The position numbers were made by a program, and so were the translations under genes. A stretch of 64,000 bases of DNA from Erythrobacter donghaensis (GTDB lineage: Bacteria; Pseudomonadota; Alphaproteobacteria; Sphingomonadales; Sphingomonadaceae). The notes under the pieces were generated by a model that saw only the letters and a program-made list of their open reading frames with translations, did not search any database and had not been told where the DNA came from. The stretch spans positions 1 through 64,000 of the forward strand of contig NZ_LSJS01000099.1 of the NCBI RefSeq assembly GCF_001557325.1, in the 5' to 3' direction. Shown one piece after another: positions 16,213 through 27,757 of this stretch; the stretch's first letter is position 1, and the number at the start of each line of letters is the position of its first letter.

Positions 16213-17502
16213 TTGCACGATAGCGAGAGCGCCGGCGGCGCCGGACAGGGGAAATTCGCGCTGGTCTCGATCCGCCTGCCGGTGGCGCTGACCTTCGCCG
16301 CGCTGATCGGCGGACTGGCTGCCGGGATAGCGGGCGCGATGGCCGGAGCGCCGCAGGGGGCGTCGGACATTGCCGGGCTGGTCGGCGGGCTGTGGCTGCG
16401 CGCGCTGCAGATGACGATCATCCCGCTGGTCGCCGCACTGCTGGTGCTGGGCCTCGTCCAGATGATCCTCGCCGCGCGGGTCGGCACCGTGGCGCGGCGG
16501 ATGCTCGCGATCCTGGTGGCCGCGCAGCTGGCGGGCGGGGCCTTCACCACCTTCGCCATGCCTCCGCTGCTAGCCGCATGGCCCGTTCCCGCCGGGGCCG
16601 AGGCCTTCCTCGCCCAGACCCCTTCCGAGGTCGGCGAGGTGCCCAAGGTGCTCGATTTCCTCGCCTCGCTGGTCAGCCCCAACATCGTCGCCGCCGCCGC
16701 CGAGACCGCGATGCTGCCGCTGACGCTGTTCTTCGTGATGTTCGCGGTCGCGATCACCCGCCTGCCGGAGGATCAGGGCGAACGGCTGCTCGGCTTCTTC
16801 CACGCGCTTGGCAACGCGATGCTGCTGATCATCGGGTGGGTGCTGAGCGCCGCGCCGGTCGGCGTCTTCGCGCTCGCCTATGGCGTCGGCATCCAGAGCG
16901 GCAGCGGGGTGTTCGCCGCGCTCGGCCATTATGTTGTCACGGTGACGCTGATGGGCACCTTCGTGCTGGCGCTCGCCTATGCCATCGCGGTGCTCGGCGG
17001 GCGGATCGGCCTTGCGCGCTTTGCCAGCGCGGTGCTGCCCGCGCAGGCAGTGGCGCTGTCGACCCAGTCCTCGCTCGCGAGCCTGCCCGCCATGCTCGAC
17101 AGCGCCGGGCGGCTGGGCCTGCGCGCCTCGACCGCCGAATTCGTCCTGCCGCTCGCGGTGGTGGTGTTCCGTGCGACCAGCGCGGCGATGAACCTCGCGG
17201 TGGTCTACTACGTCGCCGCGCTTGCCGGGGTGGAGGTGCCGCTCACCGTCGCCATCGCCGGCATCCTCATCGCCAGCGTCATCAGCCTTTCCGCGGTCAG
17301 CCTGCCCGGCTCGATCAGCTTCGTCGTCTCGATCGGCCCGATCGCCCTGGCGATGGGCGTCCCCGTCGAGCCGCTCGCGCTGCTGGTCGCGGTGGAGATG
17401 CTGCCCGATCTGATGCGCACTTTGGCCAACGTCACCATGAACGTGGCTGTGACGAGCGCGGTTGACCGCAGCGCACGAACGGACAAGACGCCTGCGACTT
17501 GA
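16213..17502 (+). CDS. dicarboxylate/amino acid:cation symporter (DAACS/SDF family)
   Basis: 429-aa polytopic inner-membrane carrier. About eight to ten hydrophobic segments and the re-entrant serine-rich region (ALSTQSSLASLPAML) are typical of GltP/DctA-type sodium or proton:dicarboxylate symporters. The canonical NMDGT-type motif in TM7 is replaced by FRATSAAMN, so the substrate may differ from glutamate or C4-dicarboxylates. Start is TTG at 16213, with AAGGA 8 bp upstream. It is divergent from glmM. Confidence 0.88.
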   Translation: MHDSESAGGAGQGKFALVSIRLPVALTFAALIGGLAAGIAGAMAGAPQGASDIAGLVGGLWLRALQMTIIPLVAALLVLGLVQMILAARVGTVARRMLAILVAAQLAGGAFTTFAMPPLLAAWPVPAGAEAFLAQTPSEVGEVPKVLDFLASLVSPNIVAAAAETAMLPLTLFFVMFAVAITRLPEDQGERLLGFFHALGNAMLLIIGWVLSAAPVGVFALAYGVGIQSGSGVFAALGHYVVTVTLMGTFVLALAYAIAVLGGRIGLARFASAVLPAQAVALSTQSSLASLPAMLDSAGRLGLRASTAEFVLPLAVVVFRATSAAMNLAVVYYVAALAGVEVPLTVAIAGILIASVISLSAVSLPGSISFVVSIGPIALAMGVPVEPLALLVAVEMLPDLMRTLANVTMNVAVTSAVDRSARTDKTPAT

Positions 17503-17572
17503 AGCTGCAACCCTTAGCGCACATCTGCGTTACCGATCCGAGACCTGCAACACCGATCCTGGAGGACTGCCC

Positions 17573-18181
17573 ATGGCTTTCGCACTTTCCCCGCTGCCCT
17601 ATGCCGACACCGCGCTCGAGCCCGCCATCTCGGCCGAGACGCTGTCGTTCCACCACGGCAAGCACCACCAGACTTACGTGGACAAGATGAACGCCGCGAT
17701 CGCGGGCACCGAGCATGAGACGAAGTCGCTCGAAGAGATCGTCGCCGCCTCGCGCGGCACCAACCAGGGCCTGTTCAACAACTCGGCGCAGACCTGGAAC
17801 CACGCCTTCTACTGGCACTCGATGGCGCCTTCGACCACCGAGGCTTCGGCAGACCTCGCCGCCAAGATCGACGAGGCTTTCGGCTCGGTCGATGCGCTCA
17901 AGCAGCAGCTCAAGGACCGCGGCACCGGGCACTTCGCGTCGGGCTGGGTGTGGCTCGCCGAGAAGGACGGCAAGCTCTCGATCGAGGAAACCCACGATGC
18001 CGACACGCTCGCCGACAGCGGTTTCAACCCGCTGCTGGTGCTCGACGTGTGGGAGCACGCCTATTACCTCGATCACCAGAACAAGCGCCCCGCCTATCTC
18101 GACGCTGTGGTCGAGAACAAGCTCAACTGGGCCTTCGCCAGCGAGAACCTCGCGCGCGGGACGGTGTGGACCTACGCCTGA
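17573..18181 (+). CDS. sodB: superoxide dismutase, iron type
   Basis: 202-aa Fe/Mn superoxide dismutase that disproportionates superoxide in the cytosol. Metal ligands H27 (SFHHGKHH), H77 (WNHAFYW), D159 and H162 (DVWEHAYY) are all present. Gln73 in AQTWNH supports the iron form. GGAGG lies 7 bp before the ATG. A strong intrinsic terminator follows, so it is monocistronic at its 3' end. Confidence 0.97.
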   Translation: MAFALSPLPYADTALEPAISAETLSFHHGKHHQTYVDKMNAAIAGTEHETKSLEEIVAASRGTNQGLFNNSAQTWNHAFYWHSMAPSTTEASADLAAKIDEAFGSVDALKQQLKDRGTGHFASGWVWLAEKDGKLSIEETHDADTLADSGFNPLLVLDVWEHAYYLDHQNKRPAYLDAVVENKLNWAFASENLARGTVWTYA

Positions 18182-18203
18182 TTTTCTCGGGTTCGGGATG
18201 AGG

Positions 18204-18238
18204 AAGGCCCGGGGCGCAAGACGCTTCCGGGCCTTTTT
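18204..18238 (+). terminator. intrinsic terminator of sodB
   Basis: Perfect 9-bp outer stem AAGGCCCGG/CCGGGCCTT (18204-18212, 18227-18235), with an inner GCG/CGC pairing and a 5-T run from 18234, 22 bp after the sodB stop. Confidence 0.92.
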
Positions 18239-18310
18239 CTTGTAGCCTCCTACCCTTCAGGGGAGAGGGTTGGGAGAGGGGGCGTGCGCGGCCATGCCCC
18301 TCGCAACTCC

Positions 18311-18362
18311 GGCTAGGCAGCCAGCTGCCAAGCCTGCGTATCTCTCCCTTGAACGGGAGAGA
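18311..18362. repeat. two adjacent intergenic hairpins between sodB and ecfG
   Basis: GGCT-A-GGCAG/CTGCC-A-AGCC (18311-18334) and TCTCTCCC/GGGAGAGA (18341-18362, loop TTGAAC) occupy the space between the sodB terminator and the ecfG stop. The G/C-rich purine/pyrimidine style matches the interspersed palindromes seen elsewhere in the window. One may end ecfG transcripts, though there is no T-run. Confidence 0.5.
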
Positions 18363-18371
18363 GCATGAGGC

Positions 18372-18995
18372 TTACCCCCGCGAACTCACCCCATTGCCCG
18401 CCGCCACCTCGTCGAGCTCCTCGAGGATTGCGCTGTGGGCGACATCGTCGTCGGTCGAGCGGCGGGGGATCGAGCCGTTCGCCAGCATTTCGGTGAGCGT
18501 CGCCCGCGCGCGGCCGACGCGGCTCTTGATCGTGCCGACCGCGCAGCCGCAGATCGCCGCGGCCTCCTCGTAGGAAAAGCCGCCCGCGCCGACCAAGAGC
18601 AGCGCCTCGCGCCGTTCGGCCGGCAGCGTCAGCAGCGCGCGGTGCAGGTCGGAGAGGTGGATCGGCTCCTCCTGCCCGGCGGGCGCGGTCAGGATGCGTT
18701 CGGCCACCCCCTCGTCATACTCGCCGCGAAAGCGGTTCCTGCGCATGTCGGTGAGATAGGCGTTGCGCAGGATCACGAAGGTCCAGGCGCGCATCGATGT
18801 GCCGGGCTCGAAGCGGTCCTGCGCCGCCCAGGCCTTGAGCAGCGTCTCCTGCACCAGATCGTCGGCCAGATCGGGCCGCCCGCACAGGCCCCGCGCAAAG
18901 GCGCGCAGGTGCGGCACCACGGCCGTCAGCTCGCGCTTGAAATCGGATTTCTGGCCCGCGCTGCGCCCGCTTCCCGAAGGCTGGTCCGCGCTCAC
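18372..18995 (-). CDS. ecfG: general stress response ECF sigma factor EcfG
   Basis: 207-aa ECF sigma factor of the EcfG group. Region 2 runs from DFKRELTAVVPHLRAFARGLCGRPDLADDLVQETLLKAW through MRAWTFVILRNAYLTDMRRNR. Region 4 contains LLTLPAERREALLLVGAGGFSYEEAAAICGCAVGTIKSRVGRAR. Together with nepR, phyR and a histidine kinase this is the alphaproteobacterial general stress response locus. The start is GTG at 18995 in a GTGA overlap with the nepR stop, so translation is coupled to the anti-sigma factor. The upstream frame to 19118 lies inside nepR. Expected to autoregulate through the GGAAC-N16-CGTT promoter upstream of nepR. Confidence 0.93.
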   Translation of the reverse strand: MSADQPSGSGRSAGQKSDFKRELTAVVPHLRAFARGLCGRPDLADDLVQETLLKAWAAQDRFEPGTSMRAWTFVILRNAYLTDMRRNRFRGEYDEGVAERILTAPAGQEEPIHLSDLHRALLTLPAERREALLLVGAGGFSYEEAAAICGCAVGTIKSRVGRARATLTEMLANGSIPRRSTDDDVAHSAILEELDEVAAGNGVSSRG

Positions 18996-19189
18996 TTGCC
19001 GCCATCCCGGCCGCGGGCAGGGGGTAGCGCGTCGAGCCGGTCGATCAGATCCTTGAAGCTGTCGGGCAGGGCCTCTTCGACCACCGAGTCGTAAAGCTGC
19101 TTCAGCCCGTCGGCCCATTCGGGCGGTCGGCGCCGGGCGCCGTGGTCGCCTCCGCCCTGATTGCCGCCCTGTCCGTCTGTCGAGGCCAT
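18992..19189 (-). CDS. nepR: anti-sigma factor NepR
   Basis: 65-aa protein. A low-complexity Gly/Gln-rich N-terminus is followed by the NepR core PEWADGLKQLYDSVVEEALPDSFKDLIDRLDAL (residues about 24-56), with the two amphipathic helices that bind either EcfG or the sigma-like domain of PhyR. It sits directly before ecfG with a 4-bp overlap. The ATG at 19189 fits the family length; the longer open frame reaches into the promoter region. It should hold EcfG inactive until phosphorylated PhyR titrates it. Confidence 0.92.
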   Translation of the reverse strand: MASTDGQGGNQGGGDHGARRRPPEWADGLKQLYDSVVEEALPDSFKDLIDRLDALPPARGRDGGK

Positions 19190-19256
19190 GTGCTCGGTCA
19201 ATCCCTGTCCCGTGTCCCGGCCCGCCTTGAGGCCGATACCGCTAGGGGGAAGCGCC

Positions 19257-21134
19257 GTGCCGGGCACGGACCGCTTACCCCGATGCGAGTTTGGACGATT
19301 CGGGAACGATGCGCTACCTGTTTGGTTCCGCCTCCGGCCGCGAACATCCCGTTGCGGCCCCCCGGCCCCGCAGGAACCGCGCATCATCGACCCGCTCGCC
19401 CTCCAACCGGAACCCGATGCGGCCGCCCAGCCGCCGCCGGATACATCGGGCCGCGCGCGGCGCTGGCTGGTGCTCTATCCGCGCGCGATCCCGCTGCTGA
19501 TCTTCCTCGCGTTGACCGCAATCACCGCGCTCAGCGTCTTCTCGATCGAGAGCAATGCCCGCGCCCGCGAGCGCGCGCAGATGCGCGAATATGCGCAAGG
19601 GCTCGCCGCCGCGCTCGACCGCAGCGGGAGCGGCTTTACCTCCTACCTGCGCGCGGGCGCGGCGCTGTTTGCGAGCGTCGAGGAAGTCAGCCCGGACACC
19701 TTCGACAGCTTCGTGCGCGCGCTGAAGCTCAACACCGAGGATTCGGGGGCGGAGGGGATCGGCTGGATCCCGGTGCTCGAGGCGCGCGATCTGCCCGGCT
19801 TTCTCGCGCGCACCCGGGCGAGCCAGCCGGCCTATCCCGACATCTTCCCCGCGCCGGCCAAAGGCAGCACGGGCCGGGTCGCGCCGGTCGCCATGTTCGC
19901 GCCCGCTACCGCGGTGAACCGCCGGGCGCTGGGCTACGACATGTATTCCGATCCCGACCGCGCCGCCGCCATGGCCGAGGCGGAGCTCAACCTGCGCCCG
20001 GCGGCCTCGGGCCGGATCGTGCTGGTGCAGAAAACCAGCGGCACCGCACCCGCTTTTGCGATCTACATGCCGGTGTTCCGCATGGGCACCGGCCCCGAGC
20101 GGCGGCTCGCGGGTTTCGTCTACACCCCTTTCCGTGCGCGCGAATTCCTCGATGCGGCGATCGACCGCGCCGGGCAGGCCCGGTTCGGGGTGCGGCTCTA
20201 CGACGGCGAGGTGGCGACCGGGCACCTGCTGGTGGCGGACACGATCGCCGATGCCGCGCGCGACACCGTGACGCAGGCAGTCACCATCGCCGATCGCAAG
20301 CTGATGCTGGTGATCGAACATGCCGACCATCGGGTGCTCTCCCCGCTGTCGATGGTGACGCTGGTGTTCGGCCTCGCGCTCGCCAGCCTGCTGATGCTGC
20401 TGGCGCGGCTGCTGACGCAGCAGGCCTTCGAGGATCAGGCGCGGCTGGCCTTCTTCGAGGAACAGCATTCGATCCGCAACTCCCTGACGCGCGAACTCAA
20501 TCACCGGGTCAAGAACACGCTCGCCAATGTGCTCTCGATCCTGTCGCTGACGCGGCGCCGGGCGAGCGGGCTCGACGATTTCGCGGATTCGCTGGAGGGC
20601 CGCATCCGCGCGCTCTCGGCGACGCATGACCTCCTGACCGTGACCGATTGGGGCACGACCCCGATCCGCGCGGTGATCGAGGCCGAGCTCCAGCATTTCC
20701 GCATCGCGCTGGGCGATGCGATCCTGCTCGAGGGGCCGGAGCTGGAGCTGGCGCCCAACGACGCGCTGTCCTTCGGGCTGGCGGTGCACGAGCTCGCCAC
20801 CAATGCGGCCAAGTATGGCGCGCTGAGCGTGCCGGGCGGCAAGGTCACGATCCGCTGGAGCCGGGGCCCGAAGAACGCCGCCGACCCTGCCGCCGAGACC
20901 GAGTGGGCCGAGGTCGAATGGCAGGAGACCGGCGGGCCGCCGGTGCCCGGCGAGCGCCGCCGCGGCTTCGGCACCGAGCTGATCGAAAAGGTCGTCGCCC
21001 ATGAGCTGCGCCAGCCGGTGACGCTCGACTTCGCCCCGAGCGGGGTGCGCTGCGTGTTGCGCGTGCCGGTGCGCAGGCCGGCCGATTTCCGGATTAGGGA
21101 GAAGGAAGCGGATCGGCGGGTGAAGAAGCCTTGA
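19257..21134 (+). CDS. CHASE-domain HWE/HisKA_2 sensor histidine kinase of the general stress response
   Basis: About 625-aa membrane sensor kinase. A transmembrane helix (IPLLIFLALTAITALSVFS), a periplasmic CHASE-type domain (GFTSYLRAGAALFASVEEVSPDTF, AEGIGWIPVLEA, ALGYDMYSDPDRAAAM), a second transmembrane helix, then a HisKA_2/HWE core with the phosphoacceptor His in ELNHRVKNTLANV (codon at 20502). The ATPase domain has VHELATNAAKYGAL and RRGFGTELIEKVV. Such kinases phosphorylate PhyR. The start is uncertain: GTG 19257 has AGGGGG 7 bp upstream, ATG 19161 overlaps nepR in antisense, and GTG 19470 sits directly before the first helix and downstream of the EcfG-like promoter. Confidence 0.87.
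   Translation: MPGTDRLPRCEFGRFGNDALPVWFRLRPRTSRCGPPAPQEPRIIDPLALQPEPDAAAQPPPDTSGRARRWLVLYPRAIPLLIFLALTAITALSVFSIESNARARERAQMREYAQGLAAALDRSGSGFTSYLRAGAALFASVEEVSPDTFDSFVRALKLNTEDSGAEGIGWIPVLEARDLPGFLARTRASQPAYPDIFPAPAKGSTGRVAPVAMFAPATAVNRRALGYDMYSDPDRAAAMAEAELNLRPAASGRIVLVQKTSGTAPAFAIYMPVFRMGTGPERRLAGFVYTPFRAREFLDAAIDRAGQARFGVRLYDGEVATGHLLVADTIADAARDTVTQAVTIADRKLMLVIEHADHRVLSPLSMVTLVFGLALASLLMLLARLLTQQAFEDQARLAFFEEQHSIRNSLTRELNHRVKNTLANVLSILSLTRRRASGLDDFADSLEGRIRALSATHDLLTVTDWGTTPIRAVIEAELQHFRIALGDAILLEGPELELAPNDALSFGLAVHELATNAAKYGALSVPGGKVTIRWSRGPKNAADPAAETEWAEVEWQETGGPPVPGERRRGFGTELIEKVVAHELRQPVTLDFAPSGVRCVLRVPVRRPADFRIREKEADRRVKKP
19303..19327 (+). promoter_or_regulatory. overlapping plus-strand EcfG-like promoter toward the kinase
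   Basis: On the plus strand, GGAAC (19303-19307), 16 nt, then GGTT (19324-19327) differ from the EcfG consensus at one -10 base. The site nearly superimposes on the minus-strand promoter, giving a quasi-palindrome. If active, the kinase would have to start downstream, for example at GTG 19470. Confidence 0.5.
19305..19329 (-). promoter_or_regulatory. EcfG-type promoter of nepR-ecfG
   Basis: Read on the minus strand, GGAAC (19329-19325), a 16-nt spacer and CGTT (19308-19305) match the EcfG consensus GGAAC-N16/17-CGTT exactly. It lies 116 bp upstream of the nepR ATG. Confidence 0.88.
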
Positions 21135-21290
21135 CCCTTCAGTCCCTCCCCGTCCCGAAGGGATGGGGAGGTGGGCGCGCGTCAGCGCGGTCGGGGAGGT
21201 CTTGCTTGCCGCCTTACCCTTCCGTCAGCCCTACGGGCTGCCACCTCCCCCTTCGCGGGGCGAACGGGGAGGGACTTGGCATCACAACGG
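21129..21290. repeat. interspersed palindromic element between kinase and phyR
   Basis: A ~136-bp block bounded by a perfect 13-bp inverted repeat (AGTCCCTCCCCGT at 21141-21153, its complement at 21264-21276). Internal palindromes include CAGCCC-TAC-GGGCTG. It fills the gap between the convergent kinase and phyR genes and slightly overlaps the end of phyR. It resembles the non-coding REP/MITE-like repeats scattered in sphingomonad genomes. Confidence 0.75.
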
Positions 21291-22073
21291 CCTGGTCGAT
21301 CCGAAGAACAGCGCCTGGCTGATCGCCGCGCGCACGGTCGCTTCCTGGAAGGGCTTGGTGACGAGATAGGTCGGCTCGGGCCGGTCGCCGGTCAGCAGGC
21401 GTTCGGGATAGGCGGTGATGAAGATCACCGGCATCGCGCCGACCGACAGGATGTCGTCGACCGCATCGAGCCCCGAGGAGCCGTCGGCGAGCTGGATGTC
21501 GGCGAGCACAAGCCCCGGCATGGCCTCGGCCACCGCGCTGCGCGCCTGGGTGCGGGTCGCCGCGGTGCCGCTGACCGTGTGGCCGAGGCCGGTGACGAGG
21601 TCCTCCAGCTGCATCGCGATCAGCGGCTCGTCCTCGATGATGAGCACGCTGGTGGTCTGCTCGCGCTCGATCTCGGCGATGGCCTCGGCGACGAGGGCTT
21701 CGACCTCTTGCGGGGTGCGCTCGAGGATCGCGGCGGCCTCGGGGATCGCGAAATCCTCGAGCGTGGTCAGCAGCAGCGCCTGCCGCGCCGGGGGCGTGAT
21801 CGCGCCGAGGCGCGCCTGCGCCCCGGCCTCGTGCTCGCTCGCCGGATCGCCGCCCGACCCGGCCGCGCCCGAACCGCTCGCCCAGACCTTGCCGAAGGCG
21901 CGGTAGAGCGGCACGCGCCCGCCCGCCAGGCTCTCCATGAGCGCGCTGTCGGCCAGCGCGGCCTCGAGCATCTCGCGCACGAAGGCATCGCCGCTCGCCT
22001 GCGATCCGGTCAGCGCGCGGGCATAGCGCCGCAGGTACGGGAGTTGGGCCGCGATCTGGCTTCCGAGGGACAT
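21282..22073 (-). CDS. phyR: PhyR response regulator / anti-anti-sigma factor
   Basis: 263-aa PhyR. Residues about 1-135 form a degenerate sigma-like (region 2/4) domain that mimics EcfG and binds NepR. Residues 142-263 form a receiver domain with acidic pocket EDE (147-149), phosphoacceptor Asp192 in LVLADIQLADG, Thr220 and Lys240 in VTKPF. Phosphorylation exposes the sigma-like domain, which sequesters NepR and frees EcfG. The Ala/Gly-rich linker within the sigma-like part (ASGSGAAGSGG, residues about 65-75) is longer than I expect. It carries its own EcfG-like promoter. Confidence 0.95.
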   Translation of the reverse strand: MSLGSQIAAQLPYLRRYARALTGSQASGDAFVREMLEAALADSALMESLAGGRVPLYRAFGKVWASGSGAAGSGGDPASEHEAGAQARLGAITPPARQALLLTTLEDFAIPEAAAILERTPQEVEALVAEAIAEIEREQTTSVLIIEDEPLIAMQLEDLVTGLGHTVSGTAATRTQARSAVAEAMPGLVLADIQLADGSSGLDAVDDILSVGAMPVIFITAYPERLLTGDRPEPTYLVTKPFQEATVRAAISQALFFGSTRPL

Positions 22074-22102
22074 GAGGGACCTTTCGCTGGTCTTTGCAAG
22101 GC

Positions 22103-22128
22103 AACCGATTCATGCCCATAGCGGTTCC
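22103..22128 (-). promoter_or_regulatory. EcfG-type promoter of phyR
   Basis: On the minus strand GGAAC (22128-22124), 17 nt, then GGTT (22106-22103): the EcfG consensus with one -10 mismatch, 30 bp upstream of the phyR ATG. The same GGTT variant appears at the kinase-side promoter. Confidence 0.72.
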
Positions 22129-22220
22129 CTGCGCCTCCGTCGCCCCCGTCGCGCAAGGTACTGGTTCCTCGGGGTTTCCTGCGTAGTGTCCCTGGGGTCA
22201 AAAAAATTTCACGGGCGCCG

Positions 22221-22245
22221 GGAACCGCCCGCAAGGACGATCATT
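22221..22245 (+). promoter_or_regulatory. possible EcfG-like promoter of the candidate small RNA
   Basis: GGAAC (22221-22225), 16 nt, CATT (22242-22245): one mismatch to GGAAC-N16-CGTT, at the right distance to start an RNA near 22252 that ends at the strong terminator at 22304-22340. Confidence 0.45.
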
Positions 22246-22251
22246 ATCGTC

Positions 22252-22340
22252 TTGTCACCGCCGAGACCCCCCTCCCGTCCAAGCGGCTGGTGATACGATC
22301 CCGAAAGGCCTCCGTTGTTTACGCAACGGAGGCCTTTTTT
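22252..22340 (+). ncRNA. candidate stress-response small RNA with exposed C-rich loop
   Basis: A ~90-nt predicted transcript. Hairpin 1 is TCACCGCCG (22255-22263) paired with CGGC-T-GGTGA (22284-22293), one bulged T. Its 20-nt loop AGACCCCCCTCCCGTCCAAG is nearly pure C/T around the centre and complementary to purine-rich Shine-Dalgarno sequences. Hairpin 2 is the 14-bp intrinsic terminator. No open reading frame on the plus strand needs this terminator. Architecture (C-rich loop plus Rho-independent terminator, beside phyR) recalls Caulobacter GsrN and other alphaproteobacterial anti-Shine-Dalgarno sRNAs. Transcription is inferred. Confidence 0.55.
22304..22340 (+). terminator. strong intrinsic terminator, plus strand
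   Basis: Perfect 14-bp stem AAAGGCCTCCGTTG/CAACGGAGGCCTTT with a 6-nt loop and a T-run at 22335-22340. It points to plus-strand transcription arising after phyR, since the nearest plus-strand gene upstream ends 1.2 kb away. Confidence 0.9.
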
Positions 22341-22395
22341 CGTTTCGGCCATCTTCGGTGGGCGGGAGGCCTGCGGCGCGCGCCAGCGCGACCGC

Positions 22396-23571
22396 TCAAC
22401 CAAGACTCCGCTCGTAGATCACATACTCTCGGTTGATCTTCGACTGGATCGTGTCGGCGATCGCCACCATCCCCTGGTTGTCCTCGAGGATCCAGCCGAT
22501 CTCGCCGCGCACCGAGCCGAATTTGGTGTTCGATTCATGCCGGATTGCCTCGATCATCATGAAGGCGAGCTGGCTGGCGAGCCGGCTGTTGTGCAGCTCC
22601 TTCAGCACCCCCATCAGCGGCACCCGCATCCCCGCGCCCTTGGGGAAGCGCAGCCAGCGCAGCATCGTGATCCAGCCAAAGGGGAAGAGCTTGCCCCTGA
22701 TCTTCGCCAGCGGAGCGTTCATGTCGGGCCAGGTCAGCATGAAGGCCACCGGCCGTCCGTCGACCTCGGCGATCATGTTCAGCTCCTCGAAGATCAGCGG
22801 GCGCAGCTTCTTGCCGGCATAGGCGACCTCGGCCGGGGTGAAGGGTACGAAGCCCCAATTGTCCGACCACGCATCGTTGAGAATGCCGAGGATGATCGCG
22901 ACCTCGGAATCCCAGTCCTGCTTGCGCACCCGGCGCACGTTGATCCGGGCGTTCTTCTCCCCCGATTGCACGATCCGCTGCACCAGCGGCGGGAAGGGCT
23001 TCGAGATGTCGAGATCATAGGTGTAGAGCGTCTTGGCGCGGGCATATCCCGCGGCCTCGATCCAGGCGGCGTAATGCGCGGGGTGGTGGCCCATCATCAC
23101 CATCGGCGCGTGATCCTGGCCCTTGACCAGCAGGCCCGGCTCCTCCCAGACCGAGAGCGAGACGGGGCCGAGCACCCGCGTCATCCCCTCGCCCGCCAGC
23201 CAGCCTTCCGCCGCGGTCAGCAGCGCGCGGGCGACGGCCTCGTTCTCGGCGTCGAAATAGCCGAAGAAGCCGGTTCCGGGGCCGAAGCCCTGCTGCGCGG
23301 GCACGGCGAGCGCCAGTTCGTCGATATGCGCCGAGATGCGCCCGACCGGCCTGCCGTCCTGTTTCGCGATGAACAGCTGCACCCGCGCGTGGCTGAAGAA
23401 GGGGTTCTTGTCCGGGTCGACCAGCTCGATCTGTTCGGAGCGGATCTGGGGCACGAAATGCGGCAGGCGTTCGGAGAAGGCGCGGCCCAGGTCGACGAAG
23501 GCGGCCCGGCCGCGCTTGTCGCTGACCGGCTCGATCACTATCTGGGGCACGTTCGCCGATACATCCGTCAC
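22396..23571 (-). CDS. GNAT-fold N-acyltransferase-like protein of unknown substrate
   Basis: 391-aa protein, conserved in sphingomonads and often labelled N-acetyltransferase or (doubtfully) dATP pyrophosphohydrolase. The sequence suggests two GNAT-like halves: an N-terminal part with QLFIAKQDGRPVGRISAH and a GYFDAENEAVARALLTAAEGWLAGEG stretch, and a C-terminal part with EELNMIAEVDGRPVAFMLTWPDMN. The start is GTG 23571, preceded by GAGGGA; the ATG at 23634 has no such site. Function unknown. Confidence 0.75.
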   Translation of the reverse strand: MTDVSANVPQIVIEPVSDKRGRAAFVDLGRAFSERLPHFVPQIRSEQIELVDPDKNPFFSHARVQLFIAKQDGRPVGRISAHIDELALAVPAQQGFGPGTGFFGYFDAENEAVARALLTAAEGWLAGEGMTRVLGPVSLSVWEEPGLLVKGQDHAPMVMMGHHPAHYAAWIEAAGYARAKTLYTYDLDISKPFPPLVQRIVQSGEKNARINVRRVRKQDWDSEVAIILGILNDAWSDNWGFVPFTPAEVAYAGKKLRPLIFEELNMIAEVDGRPVAFMLTWPDMNAPLAKIRGKLFPFGWITMLRWLRFPKGAGMRVPLMGVLKELHNSRLASQLAFMMIEAIRHESNTKFGSVRGEIGWILEDNQGMVAIADTIQSKINREYVIYERSLG

Positions 23572-23716
23572 GCCGCTTCCCTCGTATTTGCGGTTGATCA
23601 AGGTGTCTGTGTCGCGCCCGCGCCATTCGCGCAAGGCTATCGATCACATTGACCAACAACCCGCGTTTGGCTTGCCTCCCGATTTGGGGTAGGGCGCGCC
23701 CTAGGATCTAGCCCGA

Positions 23717-24796
23717 ATGACCATGCACCAGCCCCTTCCCGCCGCGCCCCAGAAGGCCACCCGCGTCCAGTTCATGGCCGAGGACGACAAGGCGATGCTG
23801 CGCGCCGCGCGCGACCTGACCAAGGGGCTGGGCGAGGCGAAGCCTGCCATCTACTGGACCGACATGCTGGTCTCGGCGGGCGTCGGCTATGCCGGGATCG
23901 CGGTGGCGATCGCCGCCGGGAGCGTGGCGGTCAAGCTTGCCGCCGGGCTGGTCGCGGCGCTGGCGCTCTACCGCGCGCTGATGTTCATCCACGAGCTCAC
24001 CCATATCCACCGCGACGCCCTACCGGGCTTCCGCACCGCCTGGAACCTGCTCGTCGGCATCCCGATGCTCACGCCCTCCTTCATGTATGAAGGCGTGCAC
24101 GTGATCCACCACAAGCGCACCCAATACGGCACGGTGGAGGACCCCGAATACCTCCCGCTCGCGCTGATGAAGCCGTGGAGCCTGCCGCTGTTCGTGCTCG
24201 TCGCGATGCTGCTGCCGGTGGCGTTGATCCTGCGCTTCGGGGTGCTCTACCCGCTCGGCTTGGCTGTCCCGCCCTTGCGGACCTTCGTGTGGGAGCGGTT
24301 CTCGTCGCTCTCGATCAACCCCGAGTTCCGCCGCCGCGCGCCCGAGGGCGAGCTCGCCGGCCGGGTGCGCTGGCAGGAAGCGGGCGCGAGCCTGTGGGCG
24401 ATGGCGCTGATCGCGTCGGTGTTCGTGTTCGGCTGGCAGCCGCTGGCGACCGCGCTCGCGATCCTCTCGCTCGCTGCGGTCTTGAACCAGCTCCGCACCC
24501 TTGTCGCCCACCTGTGGGAGAACGAGGGCGAGGCGATGACGGTGACCGCGCAGTTCCTCGATTCGGTCAACGTCCCGCCCCCGGGGATCGCCGCCGAGAT
24601 CTGGGCGCCGGTGGGGCTGCGCTATCATGCGCTCCACCACCTGATGCCTTCGATGCCCTATCATGACCTCCCCGAAGCGCACCGGCGGCTTGTCCGCGAG
24701 CTCGGCACGGGTTCGACCTATGAGGGCGCGAACCATCCGGGCATGCTGACGCTGGTGGGCCGGATCGCCAGGAGCACGATGGTCAGGCGGGCGTAA
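23717..24796 (+). CDS. membrane fatty acid desaturase family protein
   Basis: 359-aa integral membrane di-iron enzyme of the fatty acid desaturase/hydroxylase superfamily. Three His boxes are present: HELTH (HELTHIH), HVIHHKR and HALHH. Hydrophobic pairs flank the boxes. The substrate (acyl lipid, carotenoid or sphingolipid) cannot be told from sequence, though sphingomonads make both carotenoids and sphingolipids. It is divergent from the GNAT-like gene. Confidence 0.86.
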   Translation: MTMHQPLPAAPQKATRVQFMAEDDKAMLRAARDLTKGLGEAKPAIYWTDMLVSAGVGYAGIAVAIAAGSVAVKLAAGLVAALALYRALMFIHELTHIHRDALPGFRTAWNLLVGIPMLTPSFMYEGVHVIHHKRTQYGTVEDPEYLPLALMKPWSLPLFVLVAMLLPVALILRFGVLYPLGLAVPPLRTFVWERFSSLSINPEFRRRAPEGELAGRVRWQEAGASLWAMALIASVFVFGWQPLATALAILSLAAVLNQLRTLVAHLWENEGEAMTVTAQFLDSVNVPPPGIAAEIWAPVGLRYHALHHLMPSMPYHDLPEAHRRLVRELGTGSTYEGANHPGMLTLVGRIARSTMVRRA

Positions 24797-24809
24797 GTCC
24801 GCCCCCCTC

Positions 24810-25337
24810 TCAATCCAGAAAACAGATCATCGCGCAGCGGCGGTCGGCGGGGAGGCCGTCGTCGACCTCGTTGGCGAGCTCGCCCGCAAGGCGCGGGTGG
24901 GCGTCCAGGGCAGTAACCTCCTCGAAGCCGAGGCGGGCGTAGAACGGGGCGTTCCAGGCGAGGTCGCGGAAGGTGGTGAGGGTCAGTGCCTTGAACCCGG
25001 TGTTGCGCGCGTCGATCTGCGCGGCCCGGATCAACCCAGACCCGATCCCGCGCCGTCCGAAGGCCGGCAGGACGTCCATCTCCCAGATGTGCAGTTCGCG
25101 GCTGAAAGGCTGGGCGAGCAGGAAACCTGCCATGGCCTCGCCCACATGGGCGACAAGACTGTGCCCCTTGCGGATCAGGCGCTGCAGGTCGGGAACCTCC
25201 CAGGTGTCGTCCGGGTCGAAGCCTTCGAGGCCCGCGCCATGGGTGAACAGCTCTGCCGCAGCGCGCTCGATCGCGGGCATGGCAGCGGCATCCTCCACCC
25301 GCGCGAGGCGGAGCGACCAGTCGCCCCCCGGCCTCAC
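24810..25337 (-). CDS. GNAT family N-acetyltransferase
   Basis: 175-aa acetyltransferase. The acetyl-CoA loop FGRRGIGSGLIRAAQ follows the beta-strand HIWEMDVLP, and the C-terminal NAPFYARLGFEEV motif is typical of GNAT. It starts at GTG 25337 in a GTGA overlap with the lptG stop; the longer frame upstream lies inside lptG. The acceptor is unknown. Being the last gene of the lptF-lptG unit does not by itself imply an LPS role. Confidence 0.85.
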   Translation of the reverse strand: MRPGGDWSLRLARVEDAAAMPAIERAAAELFTHGAGLEGFDPDDTWEVPDLQRLIRKGHSLVAHVGEAMAGFLLAQPFSRELHIWEMDVLPAFGRRGIGSGLIRAAQIDARNTGFKALTLTTFRDLAWNAPFYARLGFEEVTALDAHPRLAGELANEVDDGLPADRRCAMICFLD

Positions 25338-26443
25338 TCTTCGGTCCGGATCAGCACCGTCTCGCCGACCAGCAGGAACAGCACGAAGGGCGCCCATGCG
25401 GCGAGCAGCGGCGGGTAGCCGCCGAAGCTGCCCATCGCGAGGGCGGCGTTGTCGACCACGAAATAGGCGAACCCCAGCGCCATGCCGATGATCGCGCGCA
25501 CGAACAACTGGCCCGAACGCGCGAGGCCGAATGCGGCGATCGAGCCCAGAAGTGGCATCAGCAGCGCCGAGAGCGGCCCCGACAGGCGGTGCCACCACTT
25601 GGCGCGCATCTCGTCGGTGTTGCGGCCCGCGGTCTCGTAGGCGTCGATCGATTCCTTCAGCTCCCAGAAGCTCTGCGCGTCGGGATCGACCGATTGCAGC
25701 ATGATCCGCTCAGGCGAAAGATTCTGCCCCACCACCAGCGCGGCCGGGCGTTCGGTGATGGCGCCCGCCACATCGAACCTCACCGGGTTCTCGAGCCGCC
25801 AGCCCGGCCCGGCATAGACTGCGCGCGGGGCGCGGACCTGCTCGCGGATGATCCCGCCGGGGCCACGCGCATACCAGGTGACGCCGGTCAGCACGATGTT
25901 CTGTCCGGCACCGCTCAGCGTGGCGGCCGAGAGGATGTTCTCGCCATCGGTGAGGTAGATGTTGGCGCGCGGGGCTCCGGCGGCGGCGTCGGTCTCAGGG
26001 ATCGGGCCGTAGTCGGCCGCCTCCCAGGCCTTGAGCGTCGCATTGGCGCGGGTGAGGATGCGCTCGTTGAAGCCGAAGCTCACCGCCGCGACCAGCACCG
26101 CGGTGAGCAGCATCGGCGCGAGCACCTGATGGGCGGAAAGCCCCGCCGCGCGCATCGCGATCACCTCGCTGTTCGCGTTCAGCGGCCAGAAGGTCAGCAG
26201 CGAGGCGAGCAGCACCGAATAGGGCAGGAAGTTCGCCACCAGCTGCGGCAGGCGCAGGCTGGCATAGCGCAGCACCTCGGCCTGCCCGTTGCCGGGGGCG
26301 GCGAGGATGTCGCCGGTCTTCGACAAGAGGTCGAGCGCCAGCAGCACCAGCACCAGCATGAACAGCACCGCGATGATCCGCACCACGAACAGCCGGGCAA
26401 GGTAGAGCGTCAGCGTGCGCGAAGGGAAGAAATCGAGCTGCAT
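25334..26443 (-). CDS. lptG: LPS export ABC transporter permease LptG
   Basis: 369-aa YjgP/YjgQ-family permease. With LptF and LptB it forms the inner-membrane machine that extracts LPS for delivery to the outer membrane. Three N-terminal transmembrane helices (residues about 15-40, 60-80, 100-120), a periplasmic beta-jellyroll-like domain and three C-terminal helices are visible. It follows lptF after 6 bp. lptB, lptA and lptC are not in the window. Confidence 0.92.
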   Translation of the reverse strand: MQLDFFPSRTLTLYLARLFVVRIIAVLFMLVLVLLALDLLSKTGDILAAPGNGQAEVLRYASLRLPQLVANFLPYSVLLASLLTFWPLNANSEVIAMRAAGLSAHQVLAPMLLTAVLVAAVSFGFNERILTRANATLKAWEAADYGPIPETDAAAGAPRANIYLTDGENILSAATLSGAGQNIVLTGVTWYARGPGGIIREQVRAPRAVYAGPGWRLENPVRFDVAGAITERPAALVVGQNLSPERIMLQSVDPDAQSFWELKESIDAYETAGRNTDEMRAKWWHRLSGPLSALLMPLLGSIAAFGLARSGQLFVRAIIGMALGFAYFVVDNAALAMGSFGGYPPLLAAWAPFVLFLLVGETVLIRTEE

Positions 26444-26449
26444 CGCGGA

Positions 26450-27757
26450 TTACTCGGCCGGTGCCGCTTCCGGAGCGGGGCGGTAGGCGCGTGGGCGGCG
26501 GCGGGTGAACAGCTTGGCGATGCGCTTCGACAGCTTGGCGAAGGCCATCTCCAACGCCCCGATCGCCTGCCCGCCCGGGACATAGGCGACGCGGTAGAAC
26601 ATCCACAAAATCAGCCCCGCGAACAGCGCGAAGGGCACCCAGAAGGCGAGCATCGGATCGAGCCTCCCGAGCGCAGCCACGTCCTCGCCGTACTGGTTCA
26701 CCTTGTGATAGGCGACCACCATGATGATCGAGACGAACACGCCCAAGGCGCTGGTCGAGCGCTTGGGCGGGATCGCCAGCGCCACCGCGAGCAGCGGCAT
26801 CAGCAGCATCATCAGGATCTCGACCAGGCGGAAGTTGAAGCTGGCGACGCTCGCATCGCGCTGCCCTGGTGCGCTGTCGCGGCTCCAGCCCATCTGGAGG
26901 AGTTCGGGGAGGATGTATTCGCGCGTCTCGTCGCCGCGCGCGCGGAACTTCTCGATCGCGGGCAGATCGATCGGCAGGTCGTGGCGGCTGAAGCTCAGCA
27001 CGCGCGGGGTCTGGCCGCGCATCCCGGTATCCTGGATGATCGTGCCTTCGGTCAGGCGCAGGATGATCGTGTCGGGATTGTCGCGCGTGGCGAGGAACGC
27101 CCCCTCGCGCGCCGAGATCGAGAGCACCTGGCCCTTTTCGTTCGCGACGCGGGCGAAGATTCCGACCAGCCGCCGCCCCTCGTCCTCGCTCGCCTCGATC
27201 CTGAGCGCCATGCGGTCGGCCAGCGTGGTGAATTCGCCGACCTTGATCGAGGCCCCGAGCGCGCCCGAGCGCAGCTCGTATTCGAGCTGTTCGTAATAGT
27301 AGCGGGAGAGCGGCTGGATGTAGAACACCAGCGCGATGTTGACCGCGACCAGCACCAGCGTGATCGCATAGGGCATGCGCAGCAGCCGGAAATAGGACAT
27401 GCCCACGCCCCGCATGGTGTCGAGCTCGGAAGAGGTCGAGAGCTTCCTGAAGGCCAGCAGCACGCCGAGCAGCAGCCCGAGCGGGATCGCGAGGCTGGCA
27501 TATTCGGGGATCAGCGCGCCGAGCATCTTGAACACCACACCCACCGGGCCGCCTTCGACCGCGACGAAATCGAACAGCCGCAGCATCTTGTCGAGCATCA
27601 GCAGCGAGGCCGCGAGCGCGAAGACGCCCAGCATCGGCACGATCGTGAGCCGCAGGATGTAGCGATCGATGGCGGGGATGAGGTTGAACAAGGCGCTTGG
27701 GGTCCGTCGTTTGCGCGAGGGCAGGATTGCCCTAGCTGCTTCGCGCGGGCGCGTCAT
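26450..27757 (-). CDS. lptF: LPS export ABC transporter permease LptF
   Basis: 435-aa YjgP/YjgQ-family permease, partner of LptG. It begins its core at IPAIDRYILRLTIVPMLGVFALAAS; the ~25 basic residues before it may be extra if a TTG start at about residue 23 is used. Six transmembrane helices surround the periplasmic domain, and the C-terminus has a basic Arg/Lys-rich tail (KRIAKLFTRRRPR). First gene of the lptF-lptG-GNAT unit. Confidence 0.93.
   Translation of the reverse strand: MTRPREAARAILPSRKRRTPSALFNLIPAIDRYILRLTIVPMLGVFALAASLLMLDKMLRLFDFVAVEGGPVGVVFKMLGALIPEYASLAIPLGLLLGVLLAFRKLSTSSELDTMRGVGMSYFRLLRMPYAITLVLVAVNIALVFYIQPLSRYYYEQLEYELRSGALGASIKVGEFTTLADRMALRIEASEDEGRRLVGIFARVANEKGQVLSISAREGAFLATRDNPDTIILRLTEGTIIQDTGMRGQTPRVLSFSRHDLPIDLPAIEKFRARGDETREYILPELLQMGWSRDSAPGQRDASVASFNFRLVEILMMLLMPLLAVALAIPPKRSTSALGVFVSIIMVVAYHKVNQYGEDVAALGRLDPMLAFWVPFALFAGLILWMFYRVAYVPGGQAIGALEMAFAKLSKRIAKLFTRRRPRAYRPAPEAAPAE

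Follow-up and report, generated by a model that had tools for sequence, protein, structure and literature searches.

The element examined here occupies positions 22221-22340 on the plus strand of the window, as the whole 64-kb stretch of analysed DNA is called, with phyR on one side and a convergent gene (22396-23634, minus strand) on the other. Its neighbourhood contains the following genes and promoter-like sites.

18372-19118, minus strand: ecfG-like ECF sigma factor open reading frame (PF04542, PF08281)
18992-19387, minus strand: nepR open reading frame with a C-terminal NepR domain (PF18557, E 1.7e-13)
19161-21134, plus strand: CHASE-HWE sensor histidine kinase, longest open frame, start uncertain (PF03924, PF07536)
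19303-19327, plus strand: GGAAC-N16-GGTT, overlapping the minus-strand nepR-ecfG promoter (looser motif scan)
19305-19329, minus strand: EcfG-type promoter before nepR-ecfG, GGAAC-N16-CGTT (motif scan)
21282-22073, minus strand: phyR, divergent from the small RNA (PF22029, PF22233, PF00072)
22103-22128, minus strand: EcfG-like site upstream of phyR, GGAAC-N17-GGTT (looser motif scan)
22221-22245, plus strand: sigma-EcfG-type promoter, with GGAAC at 22221-22225, N16, and CATT at 22242-22245 (read from the sequence)

Judged by the encoded domains this is a general-stress locus, with nepR, an ecfG-like sigma factor and a CHASE-HWE kinase at 18372-21134 next to phyR, and the placement of the element within a stress locus, proposed in an earlier note on this DNA, is borne out. 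The ecfG-like frame overlaps that of nepR, and therefore the true ecfG start probably lies further in. At the junction of the kinase gene and nepR-ecfG (19303-19329) EcfG-type sites on opposite strands overlap, and this single overlapping site may drive both directions. Between the kinase gene and phyR, which are convergent, a palindromic, REP-like C/G-rich sequence (21135-21282) was noticed by eye.

The motif GGAAC-N16/17-CRTT occurs at two sites in the 64 kb, the one at 22221 and one just upstream of nepR-ecfG. Shuffling gives an expectation of 0.87 and two or more sites in 23 of 100 shuffles; the count in the window alone is within chance. Four looser EcfG-like sites are present, against a chance expectation of 2.21. 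Downstream of the site at 22221 lies a putative RNA gene with these parts.

22254-22340, plus strand: small RNA gene of about 87 nt, predicted 5' end at 22253 or 22254 (start of the conserved block and model matches)
22254-22294, plus strand: 5' hairpin of 10 bp, 22254-22263 with 22284-22294, bulged U at 22288 (fold and alignment)
22264-22283, plus strand: C-rich loop of 20 nt, core CCCCCCUCCCGUCCAA at 22267-22282 (99% mean identity to the window)
22295-22302, plus strand: linker ACGAUCCC, also given as ACGATCCC (96% conserved)
22303-22340, plus strand: intrinsic terminator of 14-16 bp with a U-run (alignment covariation)

The RNA from 22254 to 22340 folds at -42.5 kcal/mol (z -6.6), a value that none of 200 shuffles reached; taken by itself, the 5' hairpin stretch (22254-22302) stands out less, with a z of -2.3 and 2 of 200 shuffles as good. 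The full loop reads AGACCCCCCUCCCGUCCAAG, its core has the complement GGACGGGAGGG, and the loop is probably a pairing seed. In the terminator, a 14-bp stem formed by AAAGGCCTCCGTTG (22304-22317) and CAACGGAGGCCTTT (22324-22337) is followed by a T-run, and this site has the most pairs of the five terminator-like sites in 17000-27000, a region in which shuffling expects 4.2. Since the gene that follows (22396-23634) runs towards it, no plus-strand gene of annotated size in the window makes use of this terminator. The earlier note had thus been right to describe a strong 14-bp plus-strand terminator that no gene needs, and an RNA of about 90 nt starting from a promoter at a fitting distance agrees with the 87-90 nt predicted by sequence comparison. 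Its hairpin with a 20-nt loop also stands; the stem has 10 bp with a bulged U instead of the 9 bp that had been given.

A PhyR search of genome contigs yielded at least 516 relatives, and the small RNA element is present in 30 of the best 80 of these, which were examined (L001-L030). The named carriers include Erythrobacter, Porphyrobacter, Allopontixanthobacter, Pontixanthobacter, Pseudopontixanthobacter, Altererythrobacter and Novosphingobium. One of them, L010, which was left out of the covariance model (R1), scores 104.5 bits; its element lies beyond another stretch, at a distance of about 1 kb from phyR. The other 50 of the best 80 loci, from Sphingomonas, Sphingopyxis, Rhizobium and others, give no match above 24 bits within the searched sequence, which for most of them extends 3 kb to either side of phyR. 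In 298 genomes sampled from the family of Porphyrobacter sp. AAP82 (G001) the model finds 122 at E 0.001, 119 of them at 59 bits or more, and in the genus of the same strain 91 of 100 genomes, 89 of them at 64 bits or more; the two samples overlap, and some of their genomes also supplied training loci. Every one of the 119 strong copies in the family is divergent from a phyR homologue, at a distance of 133-1096 nt, and phyR is likewise the neighbour of two further copies that sit at contig ends (L304, L306). None of the 119 genomes has more than one strong copy; any second match stays below 40 bits. At class level 8 of 385 genomes match, of which the four strong ones also belong to the family sample and one, at 43 bits, has no EcfG promoter in the preceding 45 nt.

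Weak model matches of about 30-43 bits (L114-L119, L208-L210, L212-L215) were rejected: they have no GGAAC-N-CRTT in the preceding 45 nt and resemble other hairpin-terminator stretches. The elements at L209 (1501-1584) and L212 (1501-1582), which have a hairpin, a terminator and a C-rich loop, and no EcfG promoter in the preceding 45 nt, are possibly unrelated small RNAs.

One carrier bears on a published survey. Erythrobacter litoralis is described in section 14 of PMC5869019, with no strain named in that text, as having no apparent gsrN-like gene. Genome G209 contains a 130-residue stretch 100% identical to PDB 4r39 (blue-light-activated histidine kinase 2), and at E 1e-50 only two others of 397 genomes match this stretch, at 78% and 68%. 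The structure is of a protein that we take to come from E. litoralis HTCC2594, and by this identity and presumed origin G209 was identified as that strain. It has the small RNA gene next to phyR, preceded by GGAAC-N16-CATT (L187).

The relatives remove the doubt that chance casts on the promoter: it is perfect, nine positions of nine, in 112 of the 119 loci and has eight of nine in the other 7, with GGAAC in all 119, whereas random 47-nt windows from the same loci contain a perfect promoter in 2 of 5721 cases. The EcfG -10 consensus is CGTT; most loci of this lineage (108 of 119) have CATT there. The one-mismatch EcfG-like promoter of the earlier note therefore survives as a promoter, its mismatch holding only against CGTT. 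Over the window and the 119 loci, mean identity to the window is 1.00 for GGAAC, 0.39 for the spacer, 0.97 for CATT and 0.36 for the next 7 nt. The conserved block begins 7 nt past the -10 in 112 loci and 8-9 nt past it in 7, which is the position, about 7 nt past the -10, where a transcription start would be expected.

Within the RNA, identity to the window over the 119 loci is 0.95 in the 5' arm of the hairpin stem, 0.99 in the loop core, 0.91 in the 3' arm, 0.96 in the linker, 0.71 in the 5' arm of the terminator and 0.23 in the terminator loop. The sequence CCCCCTCCCGTCC is intact in 117 of the 119, the exceptions being L206 and L207; the C-rich loop has a different sequence in the latter, as it does in L023-L025, L027 and L028 among the named loci. 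In L023 and L025-L028 the 3' hairpin is kept with no directly following U-run (e.g. CTCAAAG), and termination may work differently in these five.

Pairing was followed in two alignments, one of 30 sequences (A1; the window and 29 named loci) and one of 46 (A2; the window plus 45 loci chosen by hand among the 119, from both the best and the weaker matches). Paired cells make up 95.0% in A1 and 94.1% in A2, as compared with at most 49.1% and 51.8%, respectively, for slid structures, figures that are favoured by the derivation of the structures from the same sequences. Both-sided changes occur in 13 of 23 pairs in A1 and 14 of 26 in A2, and none of 500 shuffles of A1 reaches the real value on any of five measures. 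Most of this covariation sits in the terminator, where 11 of 13 pairs (A1) and 11 of 16 (A2) show such changes. In the loop stem 95.8% and 88.3% of cells are paired in the two A1 helices and 98.0% in A2, and since the cells with both-sided changes are few, 3 in A1 and 5 in A2, the support there is mostly conserved pairing. The alignments thus support covariation in both stems, far stronger in the terminator than in the loop stem, where it is modest. The earlier note had looked to relatives for covariation of the stems and conservation of the C-rich loop, and both are found, to these unequal degrees; it had also named as contrary evidence a loss of stem and loop with the terminator kept, and no such loss is seen in the relatives, the loop being the best-conserved stretch of the RNA.

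GsrN (CCNA_R0081) of Caulobacter crescentus, as presented in PMC5869019, is a stress small RNA with an EcfG/SigT promoter and a C-rich loop in its 5' part, whose best-proven action is the pairing of that loop with the katG leader. It is cut endonucleolytically to a 5' isoform of 51-54 nt; its BLASTn matches are confined to Caulobacteraceae, and its predicted homologues are typically found near phyR, nepR or ecfG, with C. crescentus itself an exception (PMC5869019). The RNA described here resembles GsrN in its EcfG/SigT-type promoter, recognized by sequence alone, its size (a predicted 87 nt, to be compared with about 90-100 nt), its C-rich 5' loop, conserved above the rest of the molecule, and its nearness to phyR. 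GsrN ends in a 3' terminator, as do the predicted 87 nt, which suit the length of about 100 nt expected of a GsrN-like RNA. The linker, RNA positions 43-50 with 22253 as 1, is a plausible site for GsrN-like endonucleolytic processing; cleavage or a second contact is a possible role for it.

The two RNAs appear to differ at katG. From 34 full-length katG matches found in 33 of 35 genomes, 30 leaders were used, and in prediction their pairing with the loop of their own small RNA is no better than that of random windows from the same locus (median rank 0.775, with 0 of 30 below 0.05); prediction thus gives no support to katG as a target. Because of this result, and because homology is unproven, the RNA is not filed as GsrN. 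It looks and probably works like GsrN, beside which it is set by its features, not by GsrN sequence. A sphingomonad counterpart of GsrN, as the earlier note had it, is therefore supported in promoter, size, loop and place, and finds no support in predicted katG pairing.

Rhizobial loci provide a positive control of the idea. GsrN-like RNAs with an EcfG promoter near phyR, C-rich loops and a terminator are described for Rhizobiaceae in section 14 of PMC5869019. A scan for an EcfG promoter, a C-rich run and a terminator over L031-L080 and L010 is positive in L010, where it detects the small RNA gene itself, and in 7 of the 50 others, all rhizobial (L058, L069, L071, L074, L075, L076, L078), and these seven fit the published RNAs. 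They share with the RNA of the window an EcfG promoter near phyR, C-rich loops and a terminator, and all contain an identical GGTCCCCTCCCG, which has CCCCTCCCG in common with its loop; unlike it, they are longer, about 120-125 nt, and lie on the minus strand about 1.4 kb beyond the phyR 3' end. The model gives no match at the candidate place in the seven loci. The same scan found a promoter and a hairpin with no C-rich run in L037, L038, L041 and L079. A weak model match (L060:5052-5114, minus strand, 18 bits, E 0.14) falls at about the same place as the rhizobial candidates.

In the window the Rfam gathering score is reached by tRNAs only, and by no small-RNA family. The Caulobacter small RNA CC1840 (RF01521), which likewise has a 5' hairpin with a C-rich loop and a terminator, aligns over its full length at 25.1 bits, below the gathering score of 50 that membership requires; it matches 0 of 385 class genomes, with a Caulobacter control that does match, and we know of no link between CC1840 and EcfG. 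At a relaxed threshold two other families score above CC1840, namely Bp2_287 on the minus strand (30.2 bits for a cut-off of 70) and BASRCI408 (27.8 bits for one of 398), and were set aside as far below their cut-offs and matching mainly the terminator hairpin. The anti-Shine-Dalgarno small RNAs of rhizobia and Rhodobacter (alpha-r14, cuckoo RNAs) have loops of the CCUCC type, with which they could cover ribosome binding sites, and their promoters and loci are other than those of the phyR-linked RNA.

The features of the locus are best accounted for by a sigma-EcfG-dependent, trans-acting RNA gene that belongs to the general stress response run by PhyR, NepR and EcfG, a reading to which we give a probability of roughly 80%. 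Sequence comparison supplies the promoter, the start of the conserved block, the structure, the loop invariance and the phyR linkage; transcription, EcfG dependence, mRNA pairing and the direction of the effect are what we infer. Under stress, EcfG would transcribe an RNA of about 87 nt from 22253 or 22254 to the terminator at 22340, the 5' hairpin would present the loop, and the loop core would form short seed pairings with mRNA segments that are G-rich or resemble Shine-Dalgarno sites, altering the translation or stability of several messages.

Searches for partners of the loop gave the following results. The perfect 10-nt loop complement before a start codon, GGACGGGAGG-N2-12-ATG, occurs 17 times in 25 genomes and the reversed control 13 times, with no clear enrichment, and recurs at one gene start only, in two loci (MurG-like by reading). 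Genome-wide, the 12-nt complement outside the RNA gene likewise shows no clear enrichment, with 7 occurrences to 27 reversed in 25 carriers and the same 7 to 27 in 19 non-carriers. Avoidance in carriers was rejected as an explanation of this depletion, since equal counts in the two groups indicate word bias. In the window outside the gene the longest contiguous loop pairings, G-U pairs included, reach 13 nt, none of them convincing. If the RNA pairs with mRNAs, it probably does so through short seeds, as GsrN does.

The loop sequence itself recurs on other stems. Its 14-mer CCCCCTCCCGTCCA is found at 126 places in 122 of the 298 genomes, 7 of them outside the small RNA gene, a count not striking by itself as the reversed control gives 20. 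In three of the seven (L211, L300, L301) a GGAAC-type promoter on the strand of the copy begins 47-65 nt upstream of it.

L211:1495-1602, minus strand (genome G081): second sRNA-like gene, EcfG-like promoter with -10 CGTA, identical loop
L300:1939-2069, plus strand: Hsp20 gene leader (PF00011), long hairpin with the loop 14-mer, EcfG-type promoter
L301:1941-2079, minus strand: Hsp20 gene leader (PF00011), long hairpin with the loop 14-mer, EcfG-type promoter

In L211 the loop stem differs, pairing AGCGACCGG with CCGGTTGCT, and a hairpin comes after; an open reading frame nearby resembles a transposase by eye. Recurrence of the loop behind EcfG-type promoters on other stems supports the loop as the working part of the RNA.

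These copies also suggest a decoy. The loop might be a portable module of an EcfG RNA regulon, shared by the phyR-linked RNA, the second sRNA-like gene and the hsp20 leaders, such that the C-rich hairpin binds a protein or G-rich RNA which also binds the same hairpin in the leaders and controls those stress mRNAs; the small RNA, as a mimic competing for this partner, would titrate it instead of pairing with many messages. The three promoter-linked copies and the lack of clear enrichment of mRNA complementarity are in its favour. However, outside copies are fewer than in the reversed control, the partner is hypothetical, and the two hsp20 copies are relatives (69% identical) of a type present in 5 of the 32 genomes tried (26 carriers and 6 non-carriers; E 1e-30), whose other three leaders (L309-L311) lack the loop sequence. 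We consider the decoy improbable, if worth keeping in mind.

Much less likely still is a leader or attenuator of a downstream gene in place of a free RNA. Read-through is conceivable in the 58 of 118 loci in which a same-strand open frame follows the terminator (judged by the longest open frame; one further locus was too short), but in the window the next gene is convergent, the other 60 loci are so by the same crude test, with the RNA kept, and all 119 copies match a model that includes a terminator hairpin. A mere terminator or insulator between phyR and its neighbour, with an incidental 5' hairpin, can be practically dismissed: the 3' hairpin is strong enough that it could stop transcription, yet the loop and 5' hairpin are conserved above it and a perfect EcfG promoter stands at a near-fixed distance in 112 of the 119 loci. 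A very short coding gene is equally implausible, for although 31 of the 119 RNAs contain an ATG, 88 have none, and the C-run, which is 5, 6 or 7 long in 5, 58 and 43 of the 119 (13 unread), would shift any reading frame.

As far as the searches show, this conserved family of small RNA genes, each behind a promoter of the sigma-EcfG type, is new within Rfam and the literature covered, which is thin for subscription papers and preprints and in which no paper on an EcfG-controlled small RNA of sphingomonads was recognised. The gene is small, fixed in place and usually single-copy, and the near-constancy of its loop across a sample of the whole family suggests that its partners are many or important. 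If the trans-acting RNA is real, Novosphingobium and the relatives of Erythrobacter would gain a post-transcriptional arm of the general stress response, encoded beside its switch gene phyR and present where the published survey of PMC5869019 saw none in E. litoralis. Many sphingomonads would then have their own counterpart of the Caulobacter stress RNA.
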